IMG/VR virus record: IMGVR_UViG_3300036832_000469
Span: 1 to 41,098 of that record
From: a virus
Strand: one strand, 5' to 3'
DNA length: 41,098 nucleotides
Part shown: piece after piece, positions 17,393 to 37,059 of the stretch
Layout: each line of letters begins with the position of its first letter
Numbering within the stretch: the stretch's first letter is position 1
Program-made: the position numbers and the translations under genes
Notes under the pieces: model-generated
What the model saw: the letters and a program-made list of their open reading frames with translations, nothing else
What the model was told of the DNA's origin: nothing
Databases searched by the model: none

Positions 17393-18072
17393 TTAATGCA
17401 CCATCTTTCCATCCGGGCCGGTCAATTTACCGGCGCCGCGCGCAACCCACATTTTTGCGATCTCCAATTGCTGTTGCCACGTCTGCGGTTTTGTCGGCTC
17501 CTTAAAAAGCAAGCTTTGCAAACTCGGCAATCGCTTGCTTCGTTCAAGGGCGGCCAAATGCCAAACAAGCGCGATTCGCTCGTTGTGATCGGCGACTTCG
17601 CGCTTGCGATAGGTTGTTAGGATGCGGTCGGTCTGGCGCGGTGTCAGATGCCAGAATTCATTTTCATTGAGTCGATATTGCAGCCAGACCGTTAGCCAGC
17701 CGAGCCAATCGACTCCCGTTGGCTCGGCGTCTGAGGGTTTGCGGTTTCCTCCAATACATCCGGGAATGCGGTCCCGATCGCGACATTCAGCAATGGCGCG
17801 AGCTTTGTCAGCCCACCGATTTGCCGAATCATTTCGCCGGCCTGTTGCTTGTTGATGGCCGGGTGATTGTGGCGCAAGCCATGATAGACGCAGGTCCGCG
17901 CATCCGAGGCCGACCATGTTTCGATCTTGGTGAGATCGGTCGCCAGCCGTCCGATCGGCTTGCCGGTCTCATGCTCGATGGCGCAGATCGCGTCCCAATC
18001 GAACAGCAATGTATAGACCACATTGCCAACTTCGAGATTGAATTCGCCCTTATGCGGATTTGCCATGATCAT
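17393..18072 (-). CDS. Tail assembly chaperone, frameshift fusion product
   Basis: The second chaperone frame (17393-17733) is open but lacks a sensible start of its own; it joins the first frame by a -1 shift at the slippery heptamer AAACCCT (17734-17740). The shifted product continues with S-D-A-E-P-T-G-V-D-W, then NENEFWHLTPRQTD, a helical stretch and an ending KLTGPDGKMVH. Such long chaperone forms bind the tape measure through their C-terminus during tail assembly, as lambda gpGT does. The reading-frame relation and the codon phase were checked by hand; the mechanism is inferred. Confidence 0.75.
17692..18072 (-). CDS. Tail assembly chaperone, short form (GTA gp10-like)
   Basis: This 126-residue protein resembles the gene-transfer-agent gp10 family: MANPHKGEFNLEVGN followed by a Y-T-L-L-F-D-W segment, a helix ending IEHETGKP, and a long helical C-terminal half. 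The first ATG at 18072 overlaps the upstream stop (ATGA); a second ATG is at 18066. The last codons (from AAC CCT) can slip into the -1 frame to make the longer form. It is upstream of the tape measure, as expected for the G gene of lambda-like tails. Confidence 0.8.
   Translation of the reverse strand: MIMANPHKGEFNLEVGNVVYTLLFDWDAICAIEHETGKPIGRLATDLTKIETWSASDARTCVYHGLRHNHPAINKQQAGEMIRQIGGLTKLAPLLNVAIGTAFPDVLEETANPQTPSQRESIGSAG
17734..17740 (-). promoter_or_regulatory. Programmed -1 frameshift slippery site
   Basis: On the minus strand the heptamer is A AAC CCT in the frame of the short chaperone, matching X XXY YYZ (AAA, CCC, T). Codon phase was checked from the TAA at 17692-17694. Slipping back one base leads directly into the open downstream chaperone frame. 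About 40 bases remain to the zero-frame stop. A downstream structure was not established. Confidence 0.7.
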
Positions 18073-18485
18073 GCCAGGGTTGGGGTTCCTACGATCTTGA
18101 AGGTCGCCGAGCCGGTAAGCCGGTCGCCGGCCGCTTCCGCGCTTTCAAAACCGGTGATAAAGCCCGCGAAGGAAAACTTCACCCCATTGGGAAACGTCAC
18201 GCGGCGATTGCGAACCGGGCGCGTCAGGAGCTCCGTCATCAATCCGGCCGCCGAAGTGTTGCCCGGGATGAAGTTGAATTGAATCTGAACTTCGCCCCAA
18301 TCGACAAACCCGCCGAACGGCTCGCGTGCGGAGCCCGGCGGCATTTCGTGCGAGGTATCGATCACATCAACGGAAGGTTTCGGCGGTGCAATGGCGCCGA
18401 CCTCTTCGAACGCGGTGAATGCTTCGGGCGAATTGCCGTCGCCCGTTGCAAAGGTTGAGCCATAACCGAGTAAGGCGTTCGACAT
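18069..18485 (-). CDS. Tail tube protein, second paralogue
   Basis: The 138-residue protein shares the same layout as its neighbour: IGYGT/LLGYGS start, APPKPSVDVIDTSHEMPPGSAREPFGG stretch, GEVQIQFNFIPGN, RRVTFPNGVKF, and G-F-E-x-A-x-A-x-D near the end. Tail tube proteins assemble the hexameric tube around the tape measure. Two adjacent paralogues suggest one is the main tube subunit and the other a minor or tail-tip variant. The start overlaps the previous stop as TAATG. Confidence 0.75.
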   Translation of the reverse strand: MSNALLGYGSTFATGDGNSPEAFTAFEEVGAIAPPKPSVDVIDTSHEMPPGSAREPFGGFVDWGEVQIQFNFIPGNTSAAGLMTELLTRPVRNRRVTFPNGVKFSFAGFITGFESAEAAGDRLTGSATFKIVGTPTLA

Positions 18486-18919
18486 TAGTTCGCCGTCACC
18501 GATCCGGTTACCCGCAATGTCACGGTCGCGACCATCGCGTCAGCCGTGGCGGAGGTGATTTCATAACCCTTCACCAGCGAAAGGAAGTCCCAATTGACGC
18601 CGTTGGGATAGGTGATGCGGCAATTGACGTTGGAGCCGCTGGTAAGCAATCCCTGCAAGCGGAGATCAGATTGCGAGCCCGGAACAAAGTTCATTTCGAA
18701 CGACGCCTCGCCCGGATCGATCAAGCCCGCGATAAATTCGCGGCGGCGCAGCGGCGAGGTGTTGTGGGTCACGTCAACTTCGTCGGTCTGTTGGTTGGGC
18801 GGTTTTACGTTTTTAATCTCGGCGAGCGGCACATAGGAGATCGGGCAATCGCCCGGGCTCGTGGTGCTTTCCATCGAGAACAAAGTCCCATAGCCGATCA
18901 TTGCCTGTGAGGCGGCCAT
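18485..18919 (-). CDS. Major tail tube protein
   Basis: The 144-residue product has the same fold pattern as the following gene (VPLAEIKNVKPPNQQTDEVDVTH, then FEMNFVPG, ITYPNGVNWDF, D-A-M-V-A-T-V-T-L-R-V). It has the strongest ribosome binding site in the tail operon (AGGAGG, 8 nt before the ATG), expected for the most abundant tail protein. I therefore assign the major role to this copy. The fold resembles lambda gpV-type tube proteins. Confidence 0.75.
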   Translation of the reverse strand: MAASQAMIGYGTLFSMESTTSPGDCPISYVPLAEIKNVKPPNQQTDEVDVTHNTSPLRRREFIAGLIDPGEASFEMNFVPGSQSDLRLQGLLTSGSNVNCRITYPNGVNWDFLSLVKGYEITSATADAMVATVTLRVTGSVTAN

Positions 18920-19404: not shown

Positions 19405-19814
19405 CAGCGATCCGCGTACCAGATGAGGTAATCTTGCTCGCTGGAAAATAGCTTGGAAATATCGTCATAACTGTCGCGCTCGATGTCGAAAAAAATGCCG
19501 CGGAAGATCAGCGTTGAGGTTCCATAGGTGACTGGCCCGGTAAATCCGTTGATCTTTGCCTTTACCAATTCGATCAATTGCGCCGCGCTATCGACGCCTT
19601 GCGCCCAAGCGGCGATTTGAAAGCGCGGCCGGTCAAGCCCGGTCGGGCCATCATTGGCGACATCGGTAAATCCGGAAATGCGCTGGAGTACGATCGATGG
19701 CGCGGTGACGCCCTGCGGCAAGATGGTTGGATAAATGCGGTTGCCGCCGACCGCCGAATTGATCGCCGGGTCGGAGAGCATCAATGCTCGCAGCGCAGCC
19801 CGAACGTCGGCCAT
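19404..19814 (-). CDS. Tail terminator/completion protein (DUF3168-like)
   Basis: A 136-residue protein with the DUF3168 pattern: MADVRAALRALML start, a P-S-I-V-L-Q-R-I-S strand, the F-Q-I-A-A-W-A-Q strand and the C-terminal FSSEQDYLIWY strand. Members stop tail-tube polymerisation and join tail to head. It is placed in the standard order with the gp10-like protein. It overlaps the depolymerase gene by one base at 19814. Confidence 0.85.
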   Translation of the reverse strand: MADVRAALRALMLSDPAINSAVGGNRIYPTILPQGVTAPSIVLQRISGFTDVANDGPTGLDRPRFQIAAWAQGVDSAAQLIELVKAKINGFTGPVTYGTSTLIFRGIFFDIERDSYDDISKLFSSEQDYLIWYADR

Positions 19815-20818
19815 CAGGCTAACGGGTAATAATTAAACTCGGTGACATACATATCAAACGGCCCGGTGCCATTGACGAGCGGATTTGACCCGCCAGCCCC
19901 GCCGGCCGCCATCGTAATCAATACCGAATTGGGAAATTTGCTGTACTGATTACGCGGGCGAACACAGACCTGAATGTCATTGAAATAGGTGATGCACCAA
20001 TCCCGATCGATCAATTGCCCGTAAGTATTAAATTGGGTCATGCCGATATCCGCAGCCAACCCAAGCGCCGGTGTGCCGCCCGGAAAATTGTTGTACCAAC
20101 ATAAATTATCCGAGTTGAACGGAAAAATGTCGTTGCCGCTCGGATGCCACAGATGATAGCTAGTATGGAACCCGTTTGCGAAAGCGGCATACCATTCGAT
20201 CAGGTCAAGTTCAGTCGTAATGTTGTAACAGTAGAGTGTAGGCAACACGACATATCCACCTAACCAAAGGCCTACCCATGGGCCACTAACCGGCCCCGGT
20301 ACTGACGGGCTGGTTTGAACAGGAACTACCGGCAGCTTAACTTTATATTCAAAGTAGCCGTCGGTAGGTGCAAATCCAAAACCATTCACATCGGTTGAGC
20401 ATAGATTACCACCGCGCCAAGCACCTCCCGCAATCTGATGCAGGGAGATCTTCAGGCATCCACCGTTGAAAGTTGGATCATTGAATATCACTGTATTGGT
20501 GCCATCGCCCGGCTGACTCCATGCCGCATCGCCAAAGTTCAAACCGTTTGGAAGATTTGCGATCCAGCCAAGATGATTGAGGCCGGCGGGAATGACGGTC
20601 GCATACCATGCGGTCGGATCACGAAATCGCTCCTGCACGGTTGCGGGAGCAAGCTTGCTGCGGTCGAGCATGGTTAGATTTGTTGTCGCCGGCCGGGTGA
20701 TTTGACCGATCGCCTTAAGGGGTCTTTTCCAATTGGCGCCAGCAGTCGCAACGCGGACATATTCATCGCCCGACTCTGGCGATCGCAATGTTTCATTGAG
20801 CGTCGTTACATTCGGCAT
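19814..20818 (-). CDS. GH16-like glycan depolymerase
   Basis: This 334-residue protein sits among head-tail connector genes where no such protein is normally found. Residues about 150-330 form a beta-jelly roll with the GH16 active-site motif E-L-D-L-I-E (E203, D205, E208), preceded by GYFEYKVKLP and WVGLWLGG strands and followed by TSYHLWHPSG. GH16 enzymes cut beta-1,3/1,4 glucans, galactans or agar-like polymers; on a phage they clear host capsule or slime. The first 60 residues resemble an anchor to the virion. Base composition looks lower in GC than its neighbours, which suggests recent acquisition. Motif is clear; substrate unknown. Confidence 0.75.
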   Translation of the reverse strand: MPNVTTLNETLRSPESGDEYVRVATAGANWKRPLKAIGQITRPATTNLTMLDRSKLAPATVQERFRDPTAWYATVIPAGLNHLGWIANLPNGLNFGDAAWSQPGDGTNTVIFNDPTFNGGCLKISLHQIAGGAWRGGNLCSTDVNGFGFAPTDGYFEYKVKLPVVPVQTSPSVPGPVSGPWVGLWLGGYVVLPTLYCYNITTELDLIEWYAAFANGFHTSYHLWHPSGNDIFPFNSDNLCWYNNFPGGTPALGLAADIGMTQFNTYGQLIDRDWCITYFNDIQVCVRPRNQYSKFPNSVLITMAAGGAGGSNPLVNGTGPFDMYVTEFNYYPLA

Positions 20819-21223
20819 TCATTCCCTCAATTCAAACGAGCCATCTTCGGTTTGCTCGGCCTGCGTTGGAATGCTCGCGGCGCCGCTTGAGGGCGCAACT
20901 TCCGAGCGCGTGAAGGCGTCAATTTGAATGGTCTCGTTTTGCCGGGTCACGCGCACATCGGTGATGTCGTACTCGCGGCCATCCAATACCAAACGATCCT
21001 TGGTGGTGATGGTGGACGTGATCGGATACCAGCGGATTGAAAACGTACTGAGCGAGCGGCCGACAATCTGCGGATTCACATAGCGTTCCGGACCCGGCAG
21101 ATTGATTTGCGACGCCCAAACGGTAATGAGGTCGCCCCACGTGGTGGTGATCTCGCCGCTCGGCGATTGTGTTTCGGTGGCGCGTCGGATCGTGACTCGC
21201 CACACCATCGGCCCAGCCCGCAT
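20819..21223 (-). CDS. Head closure/head-tail joining protein
   Basis: A 134-residue beta-rich protein resembling the phage head-tail joining family (HK97 gp9/SPP1 gp16): V-W-R-V-T-I-R-R-A-T-E-T, a T-T-T-W-G-D-L strand, WASQINLPGPERY, then FSIRWYP and DRLVLDGREYDITDV. These proteins form a ring below the connector. The start at 21223 is chosen because a second in-frame Met (at residue 6) also occurs; either is possible. It follows the glycan cassette with a gap of 9 bases. Confidence 0.8.
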   Translation of the reverse strand: MRAGPMVWRVTIRRATETQSPSGEITTTWGDLITVWASQINLPGPERYVNPQIVGRSLSTFSIRWYPITSTITTKDRLVLDGREYDITDVRVTRQNETIQIDAFTRSEVAPSSGAASIPTQAEQTEDGSFELRE

Positions 21224-21232
21224 GGCGCCTCG

Positions 21233-22027
21233 CTAGGTCAAGAGCCGGAATAGCGTCCCATCCACAAGCTCGGTTTCGTTGAATTGCGAATAGGCGAGCG
21301 CATTCAGCCAAGGTTGCCGGTCAGGATAGATTGGTCGCTCGACCGCCGCGAGGTCGGTTAGGCCCACCAGCGCGGCCGCGCTATCGGGATGCACGAACAC
21401 CGGGCAGCCCATGATAACAGCTTCGACCGCGGCGTTACTGCCGTGGGTTACAAGGCAATGGGCGCCGGCCAGATCCTCGTGGAGCTTGCGGCCGAACCGT
21501 TGCATTTCCTTATCGCGCCAGACAAGCGGCCGGTCGGTCAGCCCGCGCAGTGCCGCCGTAGTCCGTTCCGCCCACCCCTCAATTCGATGAAATCGGCAAT
21601 AACTCGCGGATGGCTCGGCCACCACGATATGCCCGCCGCCGCGCTTCCAGACGATCACAGGCGTTTTGAGCGCATCCCAGCGGTCCGAGGGCAGGGAGCG
21701 GATTTCACGCAGCGCATAGGCGTTTATATGCCACCGGTAATAGCCGCCGGCCGAGCCGGGCGGTAGATCGGTGGCGAACACGCGCCGGGCATAGCCGCGG
21801 TCCCAATAGATCCATTGCCGGCCGCGGGCTATCCAGCGATCGATGATTGGCCGAAGTTCCGCGGTGCAGCCCACGATCGGGGTCAGATCATCGGGGAGCC
21901 GGTCGAGCGCCACAAAGTCATGCCGGATGACCCGCCCAACCTTACCGCCAATGCGCTCGAACAGGTTGAGCTTGAACCCCTTGAGGCCGGGCGGGATGAA
22001 CAGCACAACCCGGCGCGGGTCGATCAC
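21233..22027 (-). CDS. Capsule-type glycosyltransferase-like protein
   Basis: A 264-residue protein with a GT-B-like C-terminal half: HCLVTHGSNAAVEAVIMGCPVFVH near the end matches the donor-binding motif of capsule-polysaccharide and Kdo/KpsC-like transferases (H-G-S-x-x-x-x-E-A). The N-terminal half is unassigned. It is the last gene of the glycan cassette and overlaps the TylF-like methyltransferase by 4 bases. It may transfer a sugar to the virion or to a host polysaccharide. Substrate and family subclass unknown. Confidence 0.65.
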   Translation of the reverse strand: MIDPRRVVLFIPPGLKGFKLNLFERIGGKVGRVIRHDFVALDRLPDDLTPIVGCTAELRPIIDRWIARGRQWIYWDRGYARRVFATDLPPGSAGGYYRWHINAYALREIRSLPSDRWDALKTPVIVWKRGGGHIVVAEPSASYCRFHRIEGWAERTTAALRGLTDRPLVWRDKEMQRFGRKLHEDLAGAHCLVTHGSNAAVEAVIMGCPVFVHPDSAAALVGLTDLAAVERPIYPDRQPWLNALAYSQFNETELVDGTLFRLLT

Positions 22028-22668
22028 GCCTTGACCGCCATCACGGCGGTATAATCGATCGGCTGCAACGCGATCGGGCTTTTCCGGAAATAATCATTCA
22101 CCGCTTTGCGCGCCCCGAGCCAGTGTCCGTAGTCATCAACGATTAGGATGCCGCCGCGCTCCAGCCGCGGGTAAAGAATCTCAAGCTCAATCCGCGTTGA
22201 CGCATACCAATCGGTATCCAGCCGCAGCAATGCGATTTGATCCGGAAGGTTGTTGGCGTCGCGCAAGGTTTGCTCAACGTCGCCCTCGATTAGGAACATG
22301 CGATCGGCGTCCCATAGGTCGAGCGCCATAAAATTTTCGATCACCTGCCAGCGCGAAGCTTCGGCCCAACGATCGCCGCGCGTGCGCTTGCGTTCATAGC
22401 TCGCGATCGCGCTTTTGCCATCACGTTTCACATCGAATTTGCTCGGCTTAGTCATGCCGTGGAAGGTATCGTAAAGCCAGCAAGCCCGATCCGGGCAAAC
22501 CCGCCGCGCCAAAATGATGTTGCCGCCGCGCCACACTCCGCATTCAACCACCGCGCCGGGTACTTGCTTTTTATCGATCGCTTCCAAGGCGTGAATCATC
22601 GCCATGATTCGCGAGCGTGAACTTTTGGTGAACGGCGCTGCCTCTAGCGCCAGTGATGCTGCATCCAC
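22024..22668 (-). CDS. TylF/MycF-family O-methyltransferase
   Basis: The 214-residue protein matches the macrocin O-methyltransferase family (TylF): ECGVWRGGN for S-adenosylmethionine, then ALLRLDTDWYASTR and ELEILYPRLERGGILIVDDYGHW, which holds the metal-binding D residues, and RKAVNDYF near the end. The family methylates sugar hydroxyls of macrolides and polysaccharide caps. In this cassette it probably methylates a transferred sugar. The last 25 bases overlap the neighbouring transferase gene. Confidence 0.85.
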   Translation of the reverse strand: MDAASLALEAAPFTKSSRSRIMAMIHALEAIDKKQVPGAVVECGVWRGGNIILARRVCPDRACWLYDTFHGMTKPSKFDVKRDGKSAIASYERKRTRGDRWAEASRWQVIENFMALDLWDADRMFLIEGDVEQTLRDANNLPDQIALLRLDTDWYASTRIELEILYPRLERGGILIVDDYGHWLGARKAVNDYFRKSPIALQPIDYTAVMAVKA

Positions 22669-23285
22669 GGCATGAACGCCAAATGCTTCGGATCGGCCTT
22701 ACCCGGAAAGCAAACCATGCGCGCGTCAGGTGGTAGATGATCGCCCTGCGGCCAACCGGGTTTGCGGTAAGCATAGATCCCGCTCGATGGCCCGACTTTC
22801 CAGCCGGCGGCGTCGGGCAATTTGTGCCAATACCAACCCTGATCGTCAGGAAACGAAAAGCATTTGATATGCTCGGCCGCCTTCAGGCTGAAATCGGTCC
22901 AGAGGTTAGTATGGTATCCGGTGCGAAACATAACGACCGATCCATTGAATGGGCATGGGTTTGAACTGTTCGCCCCTTGCAGGATCACGAACGATTCCCA
23001 GCGATCAAATATTTGATCTAGCTTGCCGGTGATGACAAGGTCGAGATCAAGGCATATTACCCGCCCGCTGATGCCGTTGTCGCGTTGCCATTTCGGATCG
23101 AACATGCGCAGCCGCACAAAGCAGCCGCGCACCGCTATAAGCGGATCATCCTTATCGACAAATATCGGCAGAAAGCGATGCGGTTGCTTGAGGTTTCGCA
23201 TCAGCCCGGATGCGAGCTTGGTCACGTAATCGGTGGAGTACTTGGTTCCCCACAGCCATGTGAGAACCGTTAGGGCGTCCGCCAT
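22644..23285 (-). CDS. GT-A-type glycosyltransferase
   Basis: A 213-residue protein with an N-terminal nucleotide-sugar-binding half. The motif ICLDLDLVITGKLDQIFD carries a D-x-D pair, the metal site of GT-A enzymes, and the NGSVVMFRTG region fits the acceptor side. The C-terminal end is His/Trp-rich (LAFMPWMQHHW). Possible family: GT8-like or a small phage galactosyltransferase. ATGs at the start overlap the adjacent methyltransferase gene. Activity inferred from motifs only. Confidence 0.7.
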   Translation of the reverse strand: MADALTVLTWLWGTKYSTDYVTKLASGLMRNLKQPHRFLPIFVDKDDPLIAVRGCFVRLRMFDPKWQRDNGISGRVICLDLDLVITGKLDQIFDRWESFVILQGANSSNPCPFNGSVVMFRTGYHTNLWTDFSLKAAEHIKCFSFPDDQGWYWHKLPDAAGWKVGPSSGIYAYRKPGWPQGDHLPPDARMVCFPGKADPKHLAFMPWMQHHWR

Positions 23286-23839
23286 AGAATGCCGATCCCA
23301 TTATCGCGCTTGCAGAGATTGATTTCCTTATGCCTGTAATCGCGCTTGATTTCATTCCAGATGCGTGGAACCTCGATCGGCTTTTTGCCGGGCCGGTTCT
23401 CTTCCTTCCAACCGATATCATGGAAGGCGACCAGCCGGGCCATCGGCCCGTAGTTTATCCAATCCGCCCACACATATTTGGTCGTGTGATTTGCATCAAT
23501 AAAGCAGAGATCAAACGGCGCGAAGTTCAAAACCGATTTGACCACCGCCGGATCGGTACTATCGCCGATGATCAGGTGCGCGTCGTAGCGCATATTGCAT
23601 AAGGCTTCGACGCAGGCTTCTAGATGCGGTTGGCTCTCCTTAAAGCTCGCATCGCCGTGCGGGAGATCGACCGCAACGATGCGTGAGCCTTTCGGCAATT
23701 GGCGCCCAATATGCCAGAGCGAACCCCCATGTTTGGCGCCGATCTCCAGATAGCTTGATACTTTCTGTTCGCGAATAAAATCGATGAAAGCCGCCAATTC
23801 CTGCGGATCTTGCAAGGCTGCGGTTTCATATTTTGCCAT
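23270..23839 (-). CDS. Class I methyltransferase (CmcI/Methyltransf_24-like)
   Basis: A 189-residue protein with a Rossmann-type start YLEIGAKHGGSLW (SAM motif I), an acidic D in the VAVDLPHG strand, HLIIGDSTD and a FDLCFIDANHTTKY strand, which fits the CmcI-like methyltransferase group. Such enzymes are found beside sugar transferases. Overlaps at both ends (14-16 bases) link it to the neighbours. Substrate unknown. Confidence 0.75.
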   Translation of the reverse strand: MAKYETAALQDPQELAAFIDFIREQKVSSYLEIGAKHGGSLWHIGRQLPKGSRIVAVDLPHGDASFKESQPHLEACVEALCNMRYDAHLIIGDSTDPAVVKSVLNFAPFDLCFIDANHTTKYVWADWINYGPMARLVAFHDIGWKEENRPGKKPIEVPRIWNEIKRDYRHKEINLCKRDNGIGILWRTP

Positions 23840-24599
23840 TCAGCAGCCTTTGCGCCTCGGCCTCGACCTCTTCAACGCTGATGGCCTGCATCGCAGCGTG
23901 GCAATGCGGACAAGCAAATAGTGAACCGCAAGCCTGCGCGCCGCCGGTGAGGTTGGCATGGAAATCATAGCCCGTCACCTTGGGCGGTATAAAGCCGCCG
24001 AACAGAACGACGGCGGGTAATTGCATCGCTGCGGCGCCGTGATGCAAGCCGCCCTCCGGGCCAATAAAAAGCCGGGCGGTTTTCAAGAGCTTTAACGCGT
24101 CTCTGAATGTCGCGGTAGGGACGAAATCGACGCCTGATAATTTCACCAAGCCCGAACCATAGATCGGTTGCACGACGTGCCAGCCATCGGCAATGAGAGC
24201 ATTCGCCACCGATTGGTATCGATCGACGGGCCATTGCTTGTTCGCGGCTACCGATTTTGTTCGCGGCACATTTGGTTCAATTACCACAACATCGTCACGC
24301 TCGCGGTTAATAGGCTCGTGAAAAAATATCTCTCCGGGAATTGCGCGGAATTCATAATTCCATACCCAACGATCGCCATTGTGCCGGTTATAGATTCGGT
24401 TGCCTTTGTAATAGTGAATCCATTCGATATCCGGTGCGGGTTCCTGTCCGGGCGCTGCAATGTTGGGATTGCCGTAAAAGATTTTGGCCGAATACGGCCC
24501 CCAAATAATACGCTTGCCGTCCCCGAATGCTATGCGCTTGCCGCGCGCTTTCGCCCCGCGCGCCATGCCGGTGGCCATAATGTCATCACCGATTCCCAT
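23826..24599 (-). CDS. GT9-like (heptosyltransferase-type) glycosyltransferase
   Basis: The N-terminus MGIGDDIMATG resembles the start of GT9 heptosyltransferases. The second half shows the family pattern: AANKQWPVDRYQSVANAL, a V-D-F-V-P-T-A-T-F-R-D-A-L-K-L-L segment, ARLFIGPEGGLHHGAAAM (donor binding) and LFGGFIPP. A CPHC pair near residue 230 is unusual and may bind zinc. GT9 enzymes usually add heptose to LPS core. A phage copy may build a glycan on virion proteins or alter LPS. Overlaps the neighbouring small gene by 14 bases. Confidence 0.8.
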   Translation of the reverse strand: MGIGDDIMATGMARGAKARGKRIAFGDGKRIIWGPYSAKIFYGNPNIAAPGQEPAPDIEWIHYYKGNRIYNRHNGDRWVWNYEFRAIPGEIFFHEPINRERDDVVVIEPNVPRTKSVAANKQWPVDRYQSVANALIADGWHVVQPIYGSGLVKLSGVDFVPTATFRDALKLLKTARLFIGPEGGLHHGAAAMQLPAVVLFGGFIPPKVTGYDFHANLTGGAQACGSLFACPHCHAAMQAISVEEVEAEAQRLLNGKI

Positions 24600-24804
24600 A
24601 TCGCAACGCTAGGGTGGCATCTTTGTAATCGCGGATTTTCGCAGCCTGCTGTTCCGGCGTTGCCACCATCCAACCGTCCCAGTTGCCAAGGTTGCTAAAT
24701 GGGAACACCACATTGCAGTCGCAGGTGCGGAATTGCATATTGCGGATCGCGCACCCCTTTTCGTGATCCGTAATGCGATAACCATTGGGGCCCGTGATGA
24801 TCAT
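24586..24804 (-). CDS. Small hypothetical protein in glycan cassette
   Basis: A 72-residue protein with Cys residues at C18, C28 and C30 and a rich aromatic/polar middle (FSNLGNWDGWM). It is ATGA-linked to the methyltransferase upstream and overlaps the GT9-like gene downstream. It could be a small carbohydrate-binding or accessory protein for the cassette. No family recognised. Confidence 0.6.
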   Translation of the reverse strand: MIITGPNGYRITDHEKGCAIRNMQFRTCDCNVVFPFSNLGNWDGWMVATPEQQAAKIRDYKDATLALRYGNR

Positions 24805-25418
24805 TTCTTAACGTCTTTTTTATAGATCGCGGCCGGGCGTCCCGGAAAGGCAAGCTCCGACATATGAATCCGCGTCAAGCGGCATTTTGCCATTGCCTGA
24901 TCGATCGTTGCGAGATGCTCGGGGTAACCCATGAAGGCAAAATAATGCAGCGCACGAATCCCAAGATCAAGCAATAGATGATCGAGCGATTGCCGGTCCA
25001 TTATGCGCACGAGCTTATGATAGACCCCGATAAAGAGTACGATATCAAAAGCGTCGTTGCCGAATGCATTGACCATCGCGCCGGGCTTGGTGAGATCCAC
25101 AACCTCAAATCGGCTCTCCACTCCGGGGATTTCAGCAAACCAATAGCGCGCGGTCTGGATTGATGGCGCATCAATATCGCAGCCATAGACCAGCCGGGCG
25201 CCGTTGGCAAAGAAGTCCCATGCGGCGTGCCCTTTGTTGCAACCCACATCCAGCACCGAGGCGCCGCGGGCGCGCATCAAAAGGTCAGAGATCCCATCGA
25301 GGCGAAAATCGTGCAAGCCATGAACGCGGCGGCAAATATTTTTTTCGTCCATGAACTTGGCGCCGACGGCGTCATCCTGCCAGCGCCAGCCGGGAGCATT
25401 GCGCCGCTCTGCCTTCAT
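24801..25418 (-). CDS. SAM-dependent methyltransferase
   Basis: The ATGA overlap selects the start at 25418. The 205-residue protein has the SAM motif SVLDVGCNKGHAAWDFF, an acidic strand (YGCDIDAPSI) and a later F-D-I-V-L-F strand typical of Rossmann methyltransferases. The C-terminus is basic. It likely methylates a sugar or lipid component in the glycan pathway; small differences to TylF and CmcI families suggest a separate step. Start chosen by overlap with the upstream gene. Confidence 0.8.
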   Translation of the reverse strand: MKAERRNAPGWRWQDDAVGAKFMDEKNICRRVHGLHDFRLDGISDLLMRARGASVLDVGCNKGHAAWDFFANGARLVYGCDIDAPSIQTARYWFAEIPGVESRFEVVDLTKPGAMVNAFGNDAFDIVLFIGVYHKLVRIMDRQSLDHLLLDLGIRALHYFAFMGYPEHLATIDQAMAKCRLTRIHMSELAFPGRPAAIYKKDVKK

Positions 25419-26188
25419 CCAGTTTTCCGTGCGGCGAGCGCCGCCGGATAACTTGCGGCCCAGTGCGCAAGCTCGGCGCGCCATTCGTCGGTATATGGGC
25501 CGATCTCATAGCCCGGCATATCCGGAACGCCGCTGGTGAAGTGAACCAACCACGGCTTAATCTCAGGATTGGAATAGCCGGCGAGCCAGTTCCATTTCGG
25601 ATCAAGCTCGCCGATCTCGTCGTCCTGAAGCCAGCAGAAGCGATGCAGGTCGCGGCCGGGTACGTTGTTGATCATTTCAAGCGTTAGCTTGGCATTGGAC
25701 GGATGATCGACATTAAACAGCATGACGCTTGACCAATTCTTGCGCTCGTATTGCGTCTGCAATTGGCCATCCATTTTGCTGGTCGCAACCGGATGGTGAT
25801 CATGCTTTACGCAATATAGAGCGCGAGAATCATCCAAGCCGTCAAAAATGCGAGCAAGATTGCCACGCACCAGCACGTCGCCGTCCATAAATAGAGCCCA
25901 GCCGTGACCAGCCAGTCGCGGGACGAGAAACCGGGCGATGGCGTGTTCGGTCGAGATCCGGCCATCATATTCCGCGCGCGCCGAAAGCAAGTCCACCAAT
26001 TGCCCGCGGCCTTCGCTATTGGTGACGATTTTCGTCGGCCGGTCATAAAGCCCCATCGCGATTAGCTTATCAAGCACGATGCCGTAAATCGGGATTGCCT
26101 GCGTGAGATGCCGACGCGCGGAACTGCGCGCCACCGCATAGGCCGATGCCTCGCGTGGATCAAACCCGATGAAGATCGATTTCAGCAT
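25415..26188 (-). CDS. GT8-like glycosyltransferase
   Basis: With the start at 26188 (TGATG overlap) the protein has 257 residues. It opens with SIFIGFDPREA, and has a D-x-D-type motif in ALFMDGDVLVRGNLARIFD, the GT8 donor and metal site. Later a SSVMLFNVDHP strand and WLQDDEIGELDPKWNWL match the acceptor-binding part of LPS glycosyltransferases. The gene begins just after the DUF115-like gene. Likely adds a hexose to a glycan; donor unknown. Confidence 0.8.
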   Translation of the reverse strand: MLKSIFIGFDPREASAYAVARSSARRHLTQAIPIYGIVLDKLIAMGLYDRPTKIVTNSEGRGQLVDLLSARAEYDGRISTEHAIARFLVPRLAGHGWALFMDGDVLVRGNLARIFDGLDDSRALYCVKHDHHPVATSKMDGQLQTQYERKNWSSVMLFNVDHPSNAKLTLEMINNVPGRDLHRFCWLQDDEIGELDPKWNWLAGYSNPEIKPWLVHFTSGVPDMPGYEIGPYTDEWRAELAHWAASYPAALAARKTG

Positions 26189-26853
26189 CATAAGCCCCAA
26201 CCCCGTAACGCATCCTCGAGCCCGGCCCTGCGAAAGGCCGAAATGGCAGAGATCGGCGAGGCGTTCACCACATCGATCCCCAATGCTTCGACGGTCGGCC
26301 GCGATTCGTCAAATGCCTTGCGCCACCGGTTATAGTTGTGAGTGTCCGGGTTGGCGCAGCCCGGCCAATCATTGCGGCCATACCAGTGCGGACTATTGCC
26401 TTCCGCCGCCATATCAAAGCCGATCAGCAAGATCCCGGTGGCGCCGAACTGCACCGCCAAATTGAAGGCCTGAAATCCGGAATTGCCGCCGCTGCCAACG
26501 TGGCCCGGCTTGTTGAGAATAAGCCGCTCGGTATCGCGATCGATATGGATCTGATGCAGCCCCGGAAACTGCGGCGCCAGCGGGACCGAATAGGCGAGCT
26601 TGGCGCCCTTGAATTCCGGCAAGCCCTTGCGGTGTAGCCACCAATGCGCATCGCACCCATAGACGACTTCAGCGGTCGGGCAGAGATCGATGTTGCCCTT
26701 GATCGCAAAGACGTGGATGCGGTCGCGCAGGCAATTAAGATCCTGCCGCTTGACGGACGGCCCCGAGGCCACGATCGCGCAACACTCGCCGCGCCAATCT
26801 AGCCACCAGGACACATTGTCGGGCCCGGTCTCGGCCGCCTTGTTCTCAAGCAT
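26188..26853 (-). CDS. DUF115/MAF-like sugar-related protein
   Basis: ATG at 26853 gives a 221-residue protein. It has CAIVASGPSVKRQDL at the start, a FAIKGNIDLCPTAEVVYGCDAHWW block, then GGNSGFQAFNLAVQFGATGILLIGFDMA and HWYGRN. The pattern matches DUF115/MAF-type proteins, which sit with polysaccharide and glycosylation genes and may bind or transfer nonulosonic acid sugars. Many phages carry copies next to tail genes. It starts inside the last bases of the beta-repeat gene (8-base overlap). Function by context. Confidence 0.7.
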   Translation of the reverse strand: MLENKAAETGPDNVSWWLDWRGECCAIVASGPSVKRQDLNCLRDRIHVFAIKGNIDLCPTAEVVYGCDAHWWLHRKGLPEFKGAKLAYSVPLAPQFPGLHQIHIDRDTERLILNKPGHVGSGGNSGFQAFNLAVQFGATGILLIGFDMAAEGNSPHWYGRNDWPGCANPDTHNYNRWRKAFDESRPTVEALGIDVVNASPISAISAFRRAGLEDALRGWGL

Positions 26854-28168
26854 GGCGAATGTTGACTTGGTCGCCGTCGCGCCGCGGTTGGCCGCCGCGC
26901 CGTCCCGCGGTCGGTTGTGAGGTGACGGTGCGCGGCAAGAGCGCGTCGGGTATGGTCGGCCCGACCAGCGAATAGCTAGCCTTTTGAGCGAGCAAGCTGT
27001 TACGGAAGGTGACCGCGTTGCCGGTCTCAGTGAAGGCGCCGGTCCCGGCCGGAAGATTGAGCCCGCCGACCCCGTTGCCGACATAGACATAGGAAACGCT
27101 CGGCGCGCCCAGAACGGTTTTGAACGCGACCGCAATGCCAGTTTCCAGATAGGCGCCGGCCGCCGCGATTCCGGCCGCCCCGAAGCCGGCGGCGTTGCCG
27201 CTGAATGTGTAGGCGGTGAATTGACTAGCCAGCCCCACCGTCAGGGTTGCGGCGTTGCCGGTCTCCGTGAAGGCCCCGGGCGCTGCGATCAGGGCGAGCC
27301 CGCCAACCGGGTTGCCGGTAAACGCATAGGCGCCGGGCGCGGCCGCCAGCGTGGTTTTGAAAAGCGCGGCTTGACCGGTGAGCGTGTAGCTTGCGGCCGC
27401 ACTCGCGATCGAGATACCGGCGGTTTGCCCGGTGAGCGTGTAGCTGGTATTGGCCGCCGTTAGGCTGGTGGCAAAGTTCGCGGCGATCCCGGTTTCGCTG
27501 TAGCTTCCGGCCGCCGAGACGATCGAGTAGTTGAGCGCCGCAGCATTGCCGGTGAGCAGGAACGTTCCGGGCGCTGCCGTAAGGGTCGCGCCACCGATAT
27601 CGAAGATGACGACAACATAGGAACCGGTTTGCGCCGCGAGCGTGGTTTTGAAGGCGACCGCAATGCCGGTTTCGGCGAATGCGCCGGCGGCCGAGACCAG
27701 CCCCGGATTGAGGATCGCGGCGTTGCCGGTTTCGGTAAAGGTTCCGACGTTGGCGGTGAGCGTAAAGCCACCGACCGGAAGCCCCGTGAGCGTATAGGCT
27801 CCGGGCGCCGTGATGATCGAAACATTGAAGGCTGCGGCGTTGCCGGTGAGCGCGAACGTCCCGGTATTGGCCGTGAGGGTGAATCCGCCACCAGCCGAGG
27901 CCGTGCCGCGCGGCACAAACCCGAACCGGAAAATGCTGATAAGCGGATTTTGGCCCGGTATCGAATTGAGAAACCCAACCGGTCCGGCCGCGCCGGATTG
28001 GCCTTGCGGTTGCCAGCCAAACCGGATGATCGGATCGTTGAAACTGACTAGCTGATAAGGCCGCTCATGCAGAAAACCCGTCGTGCCGGTCGGCGGCGTG
28101 CCTTCCTGCGGCGTAAAGCCGAACCGCACATAAGTAAGTAGCGGGTTTTGGCCCGGTACATTGGCCAT
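26846..28168 (-). CDS. Beta-repeat virion surface protein
   Basis: The 440-residue protein starts with three short repeats of the form N/D-P-L/I-L/I, a few residues, R-F-G-F/W, then P (about residues 8-90). Residues about 92-400 hold about 16 units of 20-22 residues with core G-x-F/Y-x-x-T-G-x-A, rich in Ala, Thr and Ser, for example AAPGAYAFTGNP and AGAFTETGNA. It predicts a long beta-solenoid or fibre. The C-terminal end is Arg-rich. It lies immediately before the glycan cassette, with which it overlaps, so it is a plausible acceptor of the sugars. A structural role is inferred from context. Confidence 0.75.
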   Translation of the reverse strand: MANVPGQNPLLTYVRFGFTPQEGTPPTGTTGFLHERPYQLVSFNDPIIRFGWQPQGQSGAAGPVGFLNSIPGQNPLISIFRFGFVPRGTASAGGGFTLTANTGTFALTGNAAAFNVSIITAPGAYTLTGLPVGGFTLTANVGTFTETGNAAILNPGLVSAAGAFAETGIAVAFKTTLAAQTGSYVVVIFDIGGATLTAAPGTFLLTGNAAALNYSIVSAAGSYSETGIAANFATSLTAANTSYTLTGQTAGISIASAAASYTLTGQAALFKTTLAAAPGAYAFTGNPVGGLALIAAPGAFTETGNAATLTVGLASQFTAYTFSGNAAGFGAAGIAAAGAYLETGIAVAFKTVLGAPSVSYVYVGNGVGGLNLPAGTGAFTETGNAVTFRNSLLAQKASYSLVGPTIPDALLPRTVTSQPTAGRRGGQPRRDGDQVNIRHA

Positions 28169-28178
28169 TGGTTAGGCA

Positions 28179-28886
28179 TTACGGTTGCGTGATGAGTAGG
28201 ATATTGAGATCGTCCGCGCCCGAGGCGGTAAACCGCAACATGATGTTGTTGCCGTTAAGATCGTTGCCCGAGAGGTCGATCTTATAGGTGCCGGTGGCAA
28301 CTTCGGTGACCGTATTGGTGGTATTGGCGAAGGTGCCGCCGTCGATTGATCGCGTTGGTTGCCAACCTGACCCAATGCCGGATTTTGGCGCGTGGGTTGT
28401 TGAGTCGGTCATCACGAACGTAAAGGCCGCGAGCGCGGTTGAGGCGGTTGCGGTGCCGCGCTTCACCGCCGACGTTACGGGCACGGCGGTGTTTGCGGTA
28501 TTGATCCAATCAACCAGTTGGATTTCCAGCACGCACGGCGCCACATTGGTGCCGCCCGCAAACATGATCAAAACAAAATTCGATCCGGTCGCGAGCGCGG
28601 TCGTGGGAATGCCGAACTCGTAAACGCCGGGCAGGAACACCGCATCCTTTTCGACAAATCCGCCGCTGGTGAAGGTTCCGCGCGTTGCGCTCGTGAGTGT
28701 GATTTGCACGCCCCCGGTGTTGCCGTCATCTTGCCGGGCGCGGTAGCAGTGCAAGGTATCGGGCGAGTTTGCGGCAGTGAGGCCGGTTTTGCCGGCGCCC
28801 GTTGTGCTTGATGAATCCTGAATGAAAATATCGACAATCTGCGTCGCATTGGCTGCGGCGAAACCCTTCGGGTATATGAGTTTCAT
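28179..28886 (-). CDS. Two-domain beta-sandwich structural protein
   Basis: A 235-residue protein with two similar halves: residues 1-127 (IFIQDSSSTTGAGKTGLT, then GVYEFGIPTTALATGSN) and residues about 150-235 (FVMTDSTTHAPKSG, then GTYKIDLSGNDLNGN). Each ends with a long strand set. This looks like an internal duplication of a phage baseplate-type beta sandwich. It is likely a virion appendage. TAGGAT lies before the ATG. No exact family known. Confidence 0.65.
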   Translation of the reverse strand: MKLIYPKGFAAANATQIVDIFIQDSSSTTGAGKTGLTAANSPDTLHCYRARQDDGNTGGVQITLTSATRGTFTSGGFVEKDAVFLPGVYEFGIPTTALATGSNFVLIMFAGGTNVAPCVLEIQLVDWINTANTAVPVTSAVKRGTATASTALAAFTFVMTDSTTHAPKSGIGSGWQPTRSIDGGTFANTTNTVTEVATGTYKIDLSGNDLNGNNIMLRFTASGADDLNILLITQP

Positions 28887-28892
28887 GGCGAT

Positions 28893-29522
28893 TTATCCTA
28901 TCGGGTTGTCGAAGAATGGCCCGCCGCTTCCGAGGCCGTCGAGATTAGTCACGCGGAACAGACTCGTGATCACGCCGCCGGCCTGCGTTTCGACTTTGTT
29001 GACGATGCGAATGATGCCGGCTTGGTTGCTGCCAGCGCCCGGCGAAGCGCTGCCAGCGGTCGCATTCGCAGCATAAAACCACGATTGGCCGCCCGGCGGC
29101 GAATTGCCGGATTGATACCACGTCACGCCCGACCCGGGAGGCGATGCGCTCCCGGAAGTCATATCGAAGGTCACGATTAGATTATTTGCGCTGGTGAATG
29201 TGAGTGGGGTTGTTATCCAATCGGAAAAAAATTGCGTTGGGGTAAAAGCCGCAACAGAAACATGAACGAATGGGTTGCCAAGATATGTTAGTTGTACGGG
29301 CGTTGCGGTTGTCGCTTCGTTGCTTGACTGCACACCGATCGAAAATGCGTCAAAATCGTAGGTATTGGTTGCGCCAGCACTGTCAAACCAAAAGCCGACC
29401 CTGATTTGATCAGTCGATGACTTGCCGGCGAGTAGTCCGTTAAGTTCATTGCGAAACGAATAGCCCGCGTTGGATGCATCAAACCCGTTTGGATTGTTAA
29501 CCGGCACCCAAATATTTGTCAT
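28893..29522 (-). CDS. Hypothetical virion protein, 209 aa
   Basis: A secreted-looking Thr/Ser/Gly-rich protein with an alternating beta pattern and no signal peptide. It has AGGTGA before the start and lies between other surface proteins. It has the composition of a fibre or appendage domain (SPPGSGVTWYQSGN). No family is recognised, and its placement suggests part of the host-binding machinery. Confidence 0.6.
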   Translation of the reverse strand: MTNIWVPVNNPNGFDASNAGYSFRNELNGLLAGKSSTDQIRVGFWFDSAGATNTYDFDAFSIGVQSSNEATTATPVQLTYLGNPFVHVSVAAFTPTQFFSDWITTPLTFTSANNLIVTFDMTSGSASPPGSGVTWYQSGNSPPGGQSWFYAANATAGSASPGAGSNQAGIIRIVNKVETQAGGVITSLFRVTNLDGLGSGGPFFDNPIG

Positions 29523-29531
29523 TCATTTCAC

Positions 29532-31196
29532 CTATGTAGAATTCAAAATTGAACCGTCGCGCATCAGCACGTTGTTGACGACGGAGGGACTAACTACGTA
29601 CCAATAGGGCGAATTCGGATAGGTCCCGGCCGCGATGTTGCTTCCCATGCTGGGCGGCGAATTGCCCGAGGTTAGGTTTTGCCAATCCAAATAATTGTCA
29701 TGGAAGCTTGGATTGATGTTTGCATAAACGCCCCGAATGGTAATTGTCTCGGTATTGCCGGCCGTGGCCGGAGCGCTCATTGCGATCGTATGCGCGCCCG
29801 AATTGTTGCTCACGATCGTGGCGCCGGCCGGAATGTCTCCGCTCGATCCGAATAATGCGCGCCCGTTAATCGTGCCGTCGGTGTTGGCCGTGATATTGGT
29901 GAAGTTGGTGGCATCAAATGCAACCGAATTGCTGGCGTTGGTGGTGGTGCCGGTGACTACATTGGCGCCCGGCGTGGCAATCAAATAGGCGGCGTTGATC
30001 GCAAGGTTGGTTGGTTGCCAACTCGTGATAGCAAAGCCCGATCCCGAGGGTACGTTATTGCTGACCGTGATCGATGATGCGCCCGGGGTTTGGCCGGGGA
30101 GGATCGAGGTTCCGGCCGGAATTGGGCCACCAAAAATCCGCAGGTTGTCGATCGAACCGGCACCGGATATGAGCAGCGAATTGTTGCTTCCGGTTAGGCT
30201 GATGGTGGTCGTGCCAGTCGAGGTTCCGGTTGCGGTGCCGTTGACGCCGCCAGCATCATGATTGGAGCCGACACCCACCACCGTGTTGTAGGCGCATTCC
30301 GATGCCGCGATATTTCCGACCGTATTGTTGCCGACGCTGTAGAAGCCTGAGTTGATTGATCCCGGCCGTCCGGTCGCAGTGTCGCCGTCTGGTTGGTAGA
30401 GCATATTGAAGTTATAGATAACCGAGGTGGCGCCGGCGATGATTTGAATGGTTTCGTTGTGCTCGTCCGATCCCCAATTGCCTTGACTTTCCAAATTATA
30501 CTTGATCACCGCTGTGCACAGTGCGCCGCCGTTGCTGCTGACCAGATAACACTTACCGGCAAACTTCTTGTGATAGCAGTAGGTCGAGCGCACCGTTCCG
30601 CCCAGGAACGCGATGTTGGCGCCTTGCCCGCTGGTGTCAACGCGATTGTTGCAATCGAAGTTAGATTTATCAACGTTGATGGTTCCGGTCTTGCTCCATG
30701 ACGAGAACATTGGAACCGTATTACTGCCGATGGCAAAATTGCAATTGGTGACGTTGCAGGTTCCGGTAAAGTTGGTGTCAATGACCAGCAAATAACCGTT
30801 GTGCAGCGAGAAATCCCAGCCATCGATGTTGACGGTCCCGGAGCCTGCCGACACCCGCACGCAAGTCGTGCCATTGTTGCCTTGCACACTATCGGCCGCA
30901 TTCAGGGCGCAGCCGGCCGGAAACGACGGGTTGAGCACGCCGCCGCTCAGAAAATCTTTAAGCGCGCCATCCGTGGCATAGACGGCGCGATCGATCCCGA
31001 CATAGTAATCAACGCCGGCGACGTTCCACGGCGGTTGGCATCCATTGATTTTGCTGCGGCCCGCCGGCGAAACCCCGGTCGGATAATTGTCGAGAATGTT
31101 TGCAAATTGTACCGACCCGGTCGGCGCCCCGCTCATGCCATCGGCATAGGCCGAGCCCGCGACGCCCATCCGCTGCCCGGCGACAAACCCCGGCAT
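29532..31196 (-). CDS. Right-handed beta-helix tailspike candidate
   Basis: A 554-residue protein with short, repeated strand-turn units rich in N, T, G and S, especially in residues 110-330 (NIDGWDFSLHNGYLLVIDT, CNVTNCNFAIGSN, INVDKSNFDCNN), which is the pattern of pectate-lyase-type beta helices. Several Cys residues may form stacked disulfide or hydrophobic ladders. Tailspikes of this shape bind or degrade host polysaccharide. The first 50 residues and the last 130 differ in composition and may anchor it. It lies with other surface proteins; the enzyme function is not shown. Confidence 0.65.
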   Translation of the reverse strand: MPGFVAGQRMGVAGSAYADGMSGAPTGSVQFANILDNYPTGVSPAGRSKINGCQPPWNVAGVDYYVGIDRAVYATDGALKDFLSGGVLNPSFPAGCALNAADSVQGNNGTTCVRVSAGSGTVNIDGWDFSLHNGYLLVIDTNFTGTCNVTNCNFAIGSNTVPMFSSWSKTGTINVDKSNFDCNNRVDTSGQGANIAFLGGTVRSTYCYHKKFAGKCYLVSSNGGALCTAVIKYNLESQGNWGSDEHNETIQIIAGATSVIYNFNMLYQPDGDTATGRPGSINSGFYSVGNNTVGNIAASECAYNTVVGVGSNHDAGGVNGTATGTSTGTTTISLTGSNNSLLISGAGSIDNLRIFGGPIPAGTSILPGQTPGASSITVSNNVPSGSGFAITSWQPTNLAINAAYLIATPGANVVTGTTTNASNSVAFDATNFTNITANTDGTINGRALFGSSGDIPAGATIVSNNSGAHTIAMSAPATAGNTETITIRGVYANINPSFHDNYLDWQNLTSGNSPPSMGSNIAAGTYPNSPYWYVVSPSVVNNVLMRDGSILNST

Positions 31197-31198
31197 GA

Positions 31199-31639
31199 TC
31201 AGGTAATGGTCAAGATGCCGTTGGTCTGGTCAAGATCGACCGTGAAGGTGTTGCCGCTGGTGACCGTTAGGCCGGTGCCATAATCCCACCAACCAATTAA
31301 CGGCTTTGCGGGCGCGCTCGGGGTATCGTTATAGAGCACCGCATATTGAAACGGGCCGATGCTGCCGCCCGCGGCCGTAAAGGTGACATCGCCGGTCGCG
31401 GTGAGCTTGTAGGTTCCGGTTGTTTGCGCCGAGGTGACGGCCCCCACTGCGTTGCCGCCCGCCACGTACCCATTGGCAGCCGTGATTTGCGTGATCGAGG
31501 CCAATATCGTGTTGACGGTCGTCAGCGCCGCGTTTGGCGCGGTGTTTGACAGCGCAATCTTGAGCGAATCGGTTTCGAGGTTGTGTACCTTTTCGGCGAG
31601 GTGCTCGACAAACCCTTGAAACTTGTTGAATGCGGCCAT
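31199..31639 (-). CDS. Small virion protein, 146 aa
   Basis: The protein begins with a short helix (FNKFQGFVEHLAEKVHNLETD), then a beta-rich body with NGYVAGGNAVGAVTSAQ and GPFQYAVLYNDTPSAP, and ends DLDQTNGILTIT. This pattern resembles phage head-decoration or tail-fibre-attached proteins. A strong ribosome binding site (AGGAAGGGA) suggests high expression. It lies between the connector and the surface proteins. Exact role unknown. Confidence 0.7.
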   Translation of the reverse strand: MAAFNKFQGFVEHLAEKVHNLETDSLKIALSNTAPNAALTTVNTILASITQITAANGYVAGGNAVGAVTSAQTTGTYKLTATGDVTFTAAGGSIGPFQYAVLYNDTPSAPAKPLIGWWDYGTGLTVTSGNTFTVDLDQTNGILTIT

Positions 31640-31654: not shown

Positions 31655-32305
31655 TTAGCCCATGCTGAGATCGATACGCTTGCGGCGCAGTAGTTGATCG
31701 GCGCCCCACGGGAGAACGACCGCGGCTTGCCCGGCGACGACTTGCTCGCGGTTGGCGTAAAGGCTCCCGAGCATCAAAAGCATTGCGGCCTTGATATCGC
31801 CCGGCACATCGGGCGGCGGCGAGTTGGTCAGATCGACGTAGCCGGCGCGAAACCGAATCCGCACCGCGTTGATGCCGGCGAAGGTCGCCGGCCATGCGCT
31901 CGGCGCGGTCGGCAAGATCCAACCCGGTTCGCGCGCATTATCGACAGTGTATTGATCGGTCGGCAATGTGTGTTGGACGCCGGCCGTGTCGTCATAGTTG
32001 ACTTGCGTGACTTGGATTAATGGCGGCAGCGGAATCAGGATCTCGTTAAGCGGGAATGTGTCGAGTATTAGATCCCATGTCTGATCAACGAGAGCACGAC
32101 CGAGGAACCCGGTCGGGCCATCAACGTGAGTTGTGGCGGCGTCGATCAATAAAGTGATCAGCGTATCTTCGTCCGGGGTATCGATGCGCAAATGGGCTTT
32201 GGCTTCGGTAAGGGTGAGCGGCTTAATTGAGGGCGGCGTGATTAGCCGCAAGCCGCGACCGCTGCCATTTATGCCGGTCGTGCCCGAACTTAGCCAGAAG
32301 CTCAT
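31655..32305 (-). CDS. Head-tail connector protein (gp6-like)
   Basis: A 216-residue protein matching the phage gp6-like connector family: IKPLTLTEAKAHLRID near residues 28-45, EDTLITLLIDAAT, a central LPPLIQVTQVNYDD strand, and a C-terminal helix DIKAAMLLMLGSLYANRE. Connector proteins of this kind form a ring under the portal. Placement directly after the portal/fibre genes fits. The first 25 residues are extra. ATGA overlap links it to the collagen-like gene. Confidence 0.88.
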   Translation of the reverse strand: MSFWLSSGTTGINGSGRGLRLITPPSIKPLTLTEAKAHLRIDTPDEDTLITLLIDAATTHVDGPTGFLGRALVDQTWDLILDTFPLNEILIPLPPLIQVTQVNYDDTAGVQHTLPTDQYTVDNAREPGWILPTAPSAWPATFAGINAVRIRFRAGYVDLTNSPPPDVPGDIKAAMLLMLGSLYANREQVVAGQAAVVLPWGADQLLRRKRIDLSMG

Positions 32306-36763: not shown

Positions 36764-36773
36764 GGTGGACCTC

Positions 36774-37004
36774 ATGCGATATGTTGTGTTGGTGAAAGTG
36801 CCGGACGACGACAACCGGCTGCGCGCGGTGGAATACAGCCGCGGCGTTTCGCTATTCTACTCGCTCAAGAGTGCGCAGCGCTTTATTAAGGACACGTTCC
36901 CGGACGATGCCGAGACGATGATCGCTATGACGCTAGACCCCAAGCTTCGTGCGTCAGGAAGCCGAGCACGAAAGCGAAAATCGCGACCAGAATTATCGCG
37001 GTAA
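36774..37004 (+). CDS. Small plus-strand gene, 76 aa
   Basis: A plus-strand ORF beginning 11 bases beyond the start of the capsid gene and preceded by GGTGGA. Good codon pattern and a reasonable fold: YVVLVKVPDDD, then GVSLFYSLKSAQRFIKDTFPDDAE. It overlaps the 44-aa minus-strand membrane gene by 80 bases. No minus-strand gene fills the interval up to there, so it may be a small inserted gene (moron). Function unknown. Confidence 0.5.
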   Translation: MRYVVLVKVPDDDNRLRAVEYSRGVSLFYSLKSAQRFIKDTFPDDAETMIAMTLDPKLRASGSRARKRKSRPELSR

Positions 37005-37059
37005 TCCAGAATGAGCGATCGCTTTCCGGCATGATCGGCGCATGGCGCGGGCGCTTCAT
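36925..37059 (-). CDS. 44-aa single-TM protein
   Basis: The ATG at 37059 overlaps the stop of the TIM-barrel-like gene (ATGA), which strongly supports it. The protein has a basic N-terminus, then one membrane helix (SFWITAIILVAIFAFVLGF). It is positioned just before the capsid gene in the head operon. It may be a small membrane protein acting in head assembly or in the host membrane. No family known. Confidence 0.7.
   Translation of the reverse strand: MKRPRHAPIMPESDRSFWITAIILVAIFAFVLGFLTHEAWGLAS

Follow-up and report, generated by a model that had tools for sequence, protein, structure and literature searches.

A conserved cassette of glycosyltransferase and methyltransferase genes in the head-neck module of a viral sequence, a candidate island for virion glycosylation

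The IMG/VR virus record IMGVR_UViG_3300036832_000469 was analyzed over its whole length of 41,098 bases (the window), which is possibly less than a whole genome. Its minus strand carries, from position 26853 to position 21233, a cassette of nine intact open reading frames (ORFs) without internal stops. They code five glycosyltransferase-like proteins, three methyltransferases and one orphan protein of 72 amino acids. Neighboring ORFs overlap by 4-25 nucleotides, several of the overlaps having the sequence ATGA or GTGA, so that the nine consecutive overlapping genes described in an earlier note on this DNA were recovered in full. The starts of the second and third genes were refined to positions 26191 and 25418, respectively, which creates ATGA overlaps; the longer ORFs extend into the upstream genes.

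The genes are named c1 to c9 in reading order, all on the minus strand. The first, c1 (26188-26853), codes a 221 amino acids-long glycosyltransferase similar to the DUF115/Maf and GT42 families (PHROG 4603, “alpha-2;3-sialyltransferase”, E 3e-34). It is followed by c2 (25415-26191; 258 amino acids), a GT8-like GT-A glycosyltransferase (PHROG 28018, E 4e-46) whose Pfam GT8 score of 19.1 bits is under the cut-off of 24.3 and whose DxD motif is kept in 34 of 34 sequences. The c3 product (24801-25418; 205 amino acids) is a class-I S-adenosylmethionine-dependent methyltransferase of the Methyltransf_25 type (Pfam PF13649, 29.3 bits, cut-off 27). The 72 amino acids-long c4 protein (24586-24804) has no match in Pfam, PHROG or NCBIfam and, in the set of loci described below, matches itself only. 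c5 (23826-24599) belongs to the GT9 or heptosyltransferase family (Pfam PF01075, 42.6 bits, 6e-11, cut-off 22) and has a conserved C-terminal cysteine motif, CGSx3CxHC. Its best PDB profile matches are lipopolysaccharide (LPS) heptosyltransferases (ADP-heptose LPS heptosyltransferase II, 1psw, E 3.5e-7); it fails the NCBIfam equivalog of LPS heptosyltransferases I/II (36.1 bits against a cut-off of 185.3). c6 (23270-23839) is a methyltransferase related to CmcI and to rhamnosyl O-methyltransferases (Pfam PF04989, 31.3 bits, cut-off 23.2), and c7 (22644-23285) a GT-A glycosyltransferase (PHROG 1962, E 2.5e-8) with a DLD motif, in which D80 and D82 are invariant across 34 sequences. c8 (22024-22668) is a sugar O-methyltransferase of the TylF family (Pfam PF05711, 124.7 bits, cut-off 23); its PDB relatives are antibiotic-sugar O-methyltransferases (NovP, 2e-18; MycF, 3e-17; CalS11 weakly). 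The last gene, c9 (21233-22027), was identified through an AlphaFold (AF2) model and PDB fold matches as coding a KpsC/WbbB-type transferase of GT-B fold. Pfam, PHROG and PDB searches thus agree with the families called in the earlier note, whose capsule-type transferase is the KpsC-fold protein c9.

The AF2 models of c1 and c9 were built from alignments of 35 sequences and reach a mean predicted local distance difference test (pLDDT) value of 93.7 and 94.0, respectively. All four PDB matches of the c1 model at E ≤ 0.001 are bacterial sialyltransferases, including CstII (1ro7, the best at E 1.5e-4, template modeling (TM) score 0.53) and the Pasteurella multocida sialyltransferase (9c08, E 7e-4). 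A GPS motif is found in 35 of 35 sequences, and the sequence-profile match to CstII is only E 0.03. The modeled fold of c1 is that of the GT42 sialyltransferases (CstII type), and it may use a CMP-sialic-acid-type donor. The nine PDB matches of the c9 model at the same threshold are all retaining 3-deoxy-D-manno-oct-2-ulosonic acid (Kdo) transferases, namely KpsC (6mgd, E 1.1e-5) and WbbB (8csd, 6e-4) types. Retaining β-Kdo transferases (GT99/GT107/GT140) are recognized by the signature motifs QXXXD, which provides the nucleophile, and (K/R)XHP, which binds cytidine monophosphate (PMC10148158, PMC12887879). The latter is found in 0 of 35 sequences of the c9 family, 33 of which have RxKE there instead. 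QXXXD is not conserved: P/TxxxY occupies its position as judged by sequence order, and 17 of the 35 sequences are devoid of any Q...D. In KrkA (GT140) the K/R is likewise absent and HP is retained. A Kdo transferase assignment of c9 agrees with the fold but not with the two signature motifs, and because these are not conserved the protein is described here as KpsC-fold and was not filed as a Kdo transferase.

Related loci were gathered from viral contigs, for which the portal, c1, c2, c7 and c9 served as queries, and from bacterial genomes, queried with c1; records of a phage collection were added and the whole was de-duplicated to 147 non-redundant groups (95% identity over 1.5 kb). Seven core families were defined: DUF115/GT42-like, GT8-like, GT9, class-I methyltransferase (MT25), CmcI-like, GT-A and KpsC-fold GT-B. 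At least four of them are present in 86 groups, the window included, and in all 86 the cassette and the structural matches lie on one strand. The seven families are visible together in 37 groups, with an identical order in 29. The majority order is DUF115-GT8-GT9-MT25-CmcI-GT-A-KpsC-fold, from which the window deviates slightly (MT25 precedes GT9 and the TylF gene is extra). Over all groups 1241 ordered gene pairs agree and 55 disagree. Because cassette genes served as bait in the scans the frequencies of presence are biased; the order is unbiased. Conservation as a block in related phages, a check proposed in the earlier note, is therefore found in the form of an ordered set that recurs in the 86 groups. 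The rarity which that note implied does not hold, as viral contigs commonly carry the cassette and a Mesorhizobium genome has it too. A portal-centered count of 37 loci with at least 6 kb downstream (not de-duplicated, and some coming from the other scans) yielded 10 with at least four core families, 15 with one to three and 12 with none. The cassette is thus common but accessory. Relatives with no cassette anywhere between portal and tape measure include locus L005 and Rhizobium phage RHph_X2_26.

The position of the cassette was assessed with a marker panel composed of structural genes only. The nearest left marker is the collagen-like gene in 20 cases, the head-tail adaptor in 18, the major capsid protein in 12 and the portal in one; the nearest right marker is the head closure gene Hc1 in 19, the adaptor in 17, the portal in 12 and a tail gene in six, the contig end being reached first in the remainder on either side. 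The cassette is mainly found at three head-neck junctions: between major capsid protein and portal, between collagen-like protein and adaptor, and between adaptor and Hc1. In the window it lies in the head-neck module, between the head-tail adaptor region and Hc1, rather than strictly among tail genes. The “late tail operon” of the earlier note is accordingly approximate, the neighbors being the adaptor upstream and Hc1 downstream. A multi-enzyme cassette for transfer and O-methylation amid virion genes, as that note described, is borne out by both family matches and site.

Median ratios of nonsynonymous to synonymous substitution rates (dN/dS) are 0.07-0.19 per cassette family, with a value of 0.31 for TylF that comes from two pairs only, compared to 0.09 for the portal and 0.21 for the major capsid protein. 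On these ratios all cassette families are under purifying selection. Dozens of other viral contigs repeat these families with their order kept, which, together with the low dN/dS, places the cassette far beyond chance. Pairwise-distance correlations of the seven core genes are only moderate among themselves (rho 0.23-0.56) and variable with the portal (-0.04 to 0.69). Strict co-inheritance as a single sealed block was rejected on these grounds, and single genes have probably been exchanged within a fixed order; distance saturation could likewise weaken the correlations. Relatives also have optional parts: TylF, a hexapeptide acyltransferase that comes with an additional GT-A gene, a nicotinamide adenine dinucleotide-dependent epimerase of nucleoside diphosphate sugars (Pfam 2.6e-22) and others. 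Several carry a second DUF115 copy between Hc1 and neck. A weak Peptidase A4-like gene (Pfam E 0.0017) is found within the cassette of contig IMGVR_UViG_3300045391_000974 (L028, 6925-7542).

The c1 scan of ~85,000 bacterial and archaeal genomes yielded only seven loci, and in a sample of 200 genomes from the bacterial family to which the Mesorhizobium host belongs five had c9 relatives, a single one being of the cassette type. This scarcity in bacterial genomes suggests that the cassette families are phage-borne and were not recently taken up from the LPS genes of a host. The best bacterial match is locus L217 of Mesorhizobium sp. CA8, in which a full cassette is found between the major capsid protein and portal genes, beside a terminase gene; judged by this gene content the locus is a candidate prophage. 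A search of the Mesorhizobium genome with the Pfam family Capsule_synth gave no match.

All structural genes of the window are read, as the cassette, from the minus strand, running from the terminase side to the fibre genes. The terminase large subunit (39443-41065) is followed by an orphan of 795 amino acids (37056-39443, no Pfam or PHROG match), a major capsid protein with a protease domain (34781-36814) and the portal (33011-34459). A collagen-like protein (32302-33084; Pfam Collagen, 5e-12, and synteny) comes next. Its gene overlaps the portal gene by 74 nucleotides, follows the portal throughout the lineage and has a very variable repeat length. The head-tail adaptor (31655-32305; PHROG 442, E 1.5e-27), which marks the insertion junction, precedes a protein without assigned function (31199-31639; PHROG 644, unknown function), three T/N-rich proteins (29532-31196, 28893-29522 and 28179-28886; no PHROG match) and, directly upstream of the cassette, a 440 amino acids-long repeat protein (26846-28168; no convincing Pfam or PHROG family match). 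The latter has many LTGNAAAF-like repeats and the 3′ end of its gene overlaps the c1 start by 8 nucleotides. Outside the window, the locus set contains no relatives of this protein or of the three T/N-rich ones. Hc1 (20819-21223; PHROG 25, E 7e-12) lies directly downstream of the cassette. In the interval between Hc1 and the tail terminator is a 334 amino acids-long protein (19814-20818) with a weak match to a PHROG of unknown function and no relatives in the locus set. Downstream are found the tail terminator, the neck, two tail-tube paralogues side by side (18069-18919), the tape measure and the fibre genes. A promoter and terminator scan gave counts equal to or below those of shuffled sequence and provided no information.

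The cassette is probably a late-expressed island for cytoplasmic glycosylation and O-methylation of virion proteins. Late in infection the nine genes would be translated together with the head-neck proteins, and the soluble glycosyltransferases would act sequentially, in the host cytoplasm, on a virion protein undergoing assembly. The glycan chain would be started or capped by one of the transferases, for which the widespread DUF115/GT42-like c1 is the most plausible candidate. The GT9, GT8-like, GT-A and KpsC-fold enzymes would lengthen the chain using host nucleotide sugars, and the TylF-, CmcI- and Methyltransf_25-type enzymes would O-methylate its sugars. The benefit would probably be a masked or altered particle surface. 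No sugar-donor synthesis gene was recognized in the window; the “complete pathway” of the earlier note is therefore an overstatement, and donors would have to be host-derived. That the cassette is found at several junctions of the virion module with its internal order kept suggests that the module itself is the functional link. None of the nine proteins matches a flippase, polymerase or lipid-linked initiating transferase family (Pfam, PHROG, NCBIfam), nor does the cassette contain a family match to a Gtr-type module (membrane flippase plus lipid-linked glucosyltransferase) or to a ligase. Hydropathy places no transmembrane helix above threshold, c1 just reaching it (1.60). Transfer to virion proteins is preferred because of this lack of recognized membrane-pathway enzymes and clear membrane segments, combined with the steady association with virion genes.

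The strongest rival is late remodeling of nascent host LPS or capsule, with lipid A-core or lipid-linked glycans as acceptors at the cytoplasmic face. Through the altered receptor the phage would avoid losing progeny to debris or would shut out superinfecting phages. The similarity of c5 to LPS heptosyltransferases speaks for such an activity, as does the fold that c9 shares with KpsC and WbbB, which are capsule and O-antigen Kdo transferases. It is nevertheless less likely given that the cassette stays in the head-neck module at several junctions (the Caulobacter phages excepted) and has no flippase, ligase or Gtr-type membrane protein; in general, a late gene also reaches only the LPS made near the end of infection. 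Of the two outcomes put forward in the earlier note, virion glycosylation is still the best explanation and LPS remodeling its main rival, the tests for an acceptor being negative or underpowered. The genes could also be cargo for lysogenic conversion or auxiliary metabolism that rides in the late operon without a virion function. The block is indeed accessory, with relatives that lack it and a variable gene content. This is quite improbable, as random cargo would not be expected to show a strongly conserved order, purifying selection and recurrent placement in one and the same module, and a lysogen normally keeps its late genes silent. Least probable is DNA hypermodification, in which the transferases would glycosylate modified bases in the genome of the phage. 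Glycosyltransferases encoded by viruses have been reported to hypermodify DNA with a variety of glycans (Pyle 2024, as cited in PMC12619734), but among the main ORFs scanned in the possibly partial genome of the window none was recognized as coding a hydroxymethylpyrimidine synthase, a TET-like or a thymidylate-synthase-like enzyme. Furthermore, the methyltransferases belong to sugar O-methyltransferase or general class-I families and the cassette lies among head-neck genes, not replication genes.

Several observations weigh against virion glycosylation. The system is known here from its genes. C-terminal serine and threonine residues of the major capsid and tail tube proteins are not enriched in cassette bearers, in comparisons that each include only three cassette-poor loci, and such tails were discarded as the acceptor on that basis. 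The collagen-like protein was rejected as acceptor, serine and threonine making up just 7% of it. KpsC- and GT9-type enzymes classically use lipid-linked acceptors at the cytoplasmic face and do not need membrane segments; missing membrane segments thus do not exclude LPS as the acceptor. With the marker panel used, flanking by structural genes arises partly by construction, the short distance being the informative part. Finally, the Caulobacter phages CcrSC and CcrColossus have the related cluster, at ~26-36% identity, outside the head-neck module, with tail genes on one side and the endolysin gene on the other. Other candidates were considered. Long collagen runs seem linked to the cassette, but only two cassette-less loci were compared and this proves nothing. 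The T/N-rich proteins encoded at 26846-31196 were dismissed as a general acceptor, as without relatives outside the window they cannot serve the whole family.

It is possible, although we hold this only tentatively, that the cassette represents a widespread, undescribed island of proteobacterial phages, in which seven ordered core enzymes and swappable modules decorate virion proteins of the head-neck region with a methylated glycan, whose precursors may be those of the host LPS core, such as ADP-heptose, and in which c9 is a new KpsC-fold family without the Kdo motifs. No description of the ordered island was recognized in the literature searched, whose coverage left out most subscription papers. 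If virion glycosylation is correct, multi-step glycosylation of particles extends beyond actinobacterial phages, is common in phages of Gram-negative soil bacteria and can be recognized by gene order. Laboratory phages of Caulobacter, and possibly of Mesorhizobium, would then allow direct tests of which phages coat themselves with sugars, of the sugars used and of the reason. Virion glycosylation would also account for many hypothetical genes of the head-neck region and add candidate new glycosyltransferase families. Even with LPS as the acceptor, an ordered seven-gene glycan island within a virion operon calls for explanation.

The closest clusters among named phages are those of Caulobacter phages and Tetraselmis viridis virus S20, with reduced versions in Pseudomonas aeruginosa phages PAJU2 and D14Q. 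CcrSC and CcrColossus have a single run of DUF115-like, KpsC-fold-like, GT8-like, methyltransferase and GT9 genes. Virus S20 codes two DUF115 homologues, a methyltransferase and a GT-A protein between major capsid protein and Hc1; it differs in that only the DUF115 and GT-A families are recognizably common and its portal is distant (26% identity). PAJU2 and D14Q have a DUF115 homologue and a methyltransferase inside the head-neck module, and D14Q also an annotated GT9, but their sets amount to 2-3 enzymes only. In PAJU2 the DUF115 homologue, an unidentified gene and the methyltransferase occupy the interval from the head closure gene to the neck gene, and gp11 of this phage has no match in Pfam. 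The DUF115/GT42-like PAJU2 ORF010 (L304, AP009624, 2486-3055; L224, 5986-6555) was labeled “structural protein” by its depositor, and a glycosyltransferase that remains in the virion would be notable.

Virion glycosylation of mycobacteriophages (Corndog/cluster O, Che8 and Myrna) was reportedly described by Freeman et al. in 2023. None of the organisms matched by tblastn of c2, c7 and c9 in the phage collection is a mycobacteriophage. Three mycobacteriophage glycosyltransferase genes are described as lying downstream of one for an O-methyltransferase, with modification reported for capsid and tail tube (PMC11600133; also PMC12619734, PMC12363180), and in Caulobacter crescentus flagellins are reported to be O-glycosylated in the cytoplasm (PMC7591256). 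The present cassette differs from the mycobacteriophage system in the phylum of the host, in its larger size and conserved order, and in being known from genes alone. Phage glycosyltransferases adjoining an O-methyltransferase gene are common to both. By analogy, we infer that the cassette may work like the virion glycosylation of mycobacteriophages.

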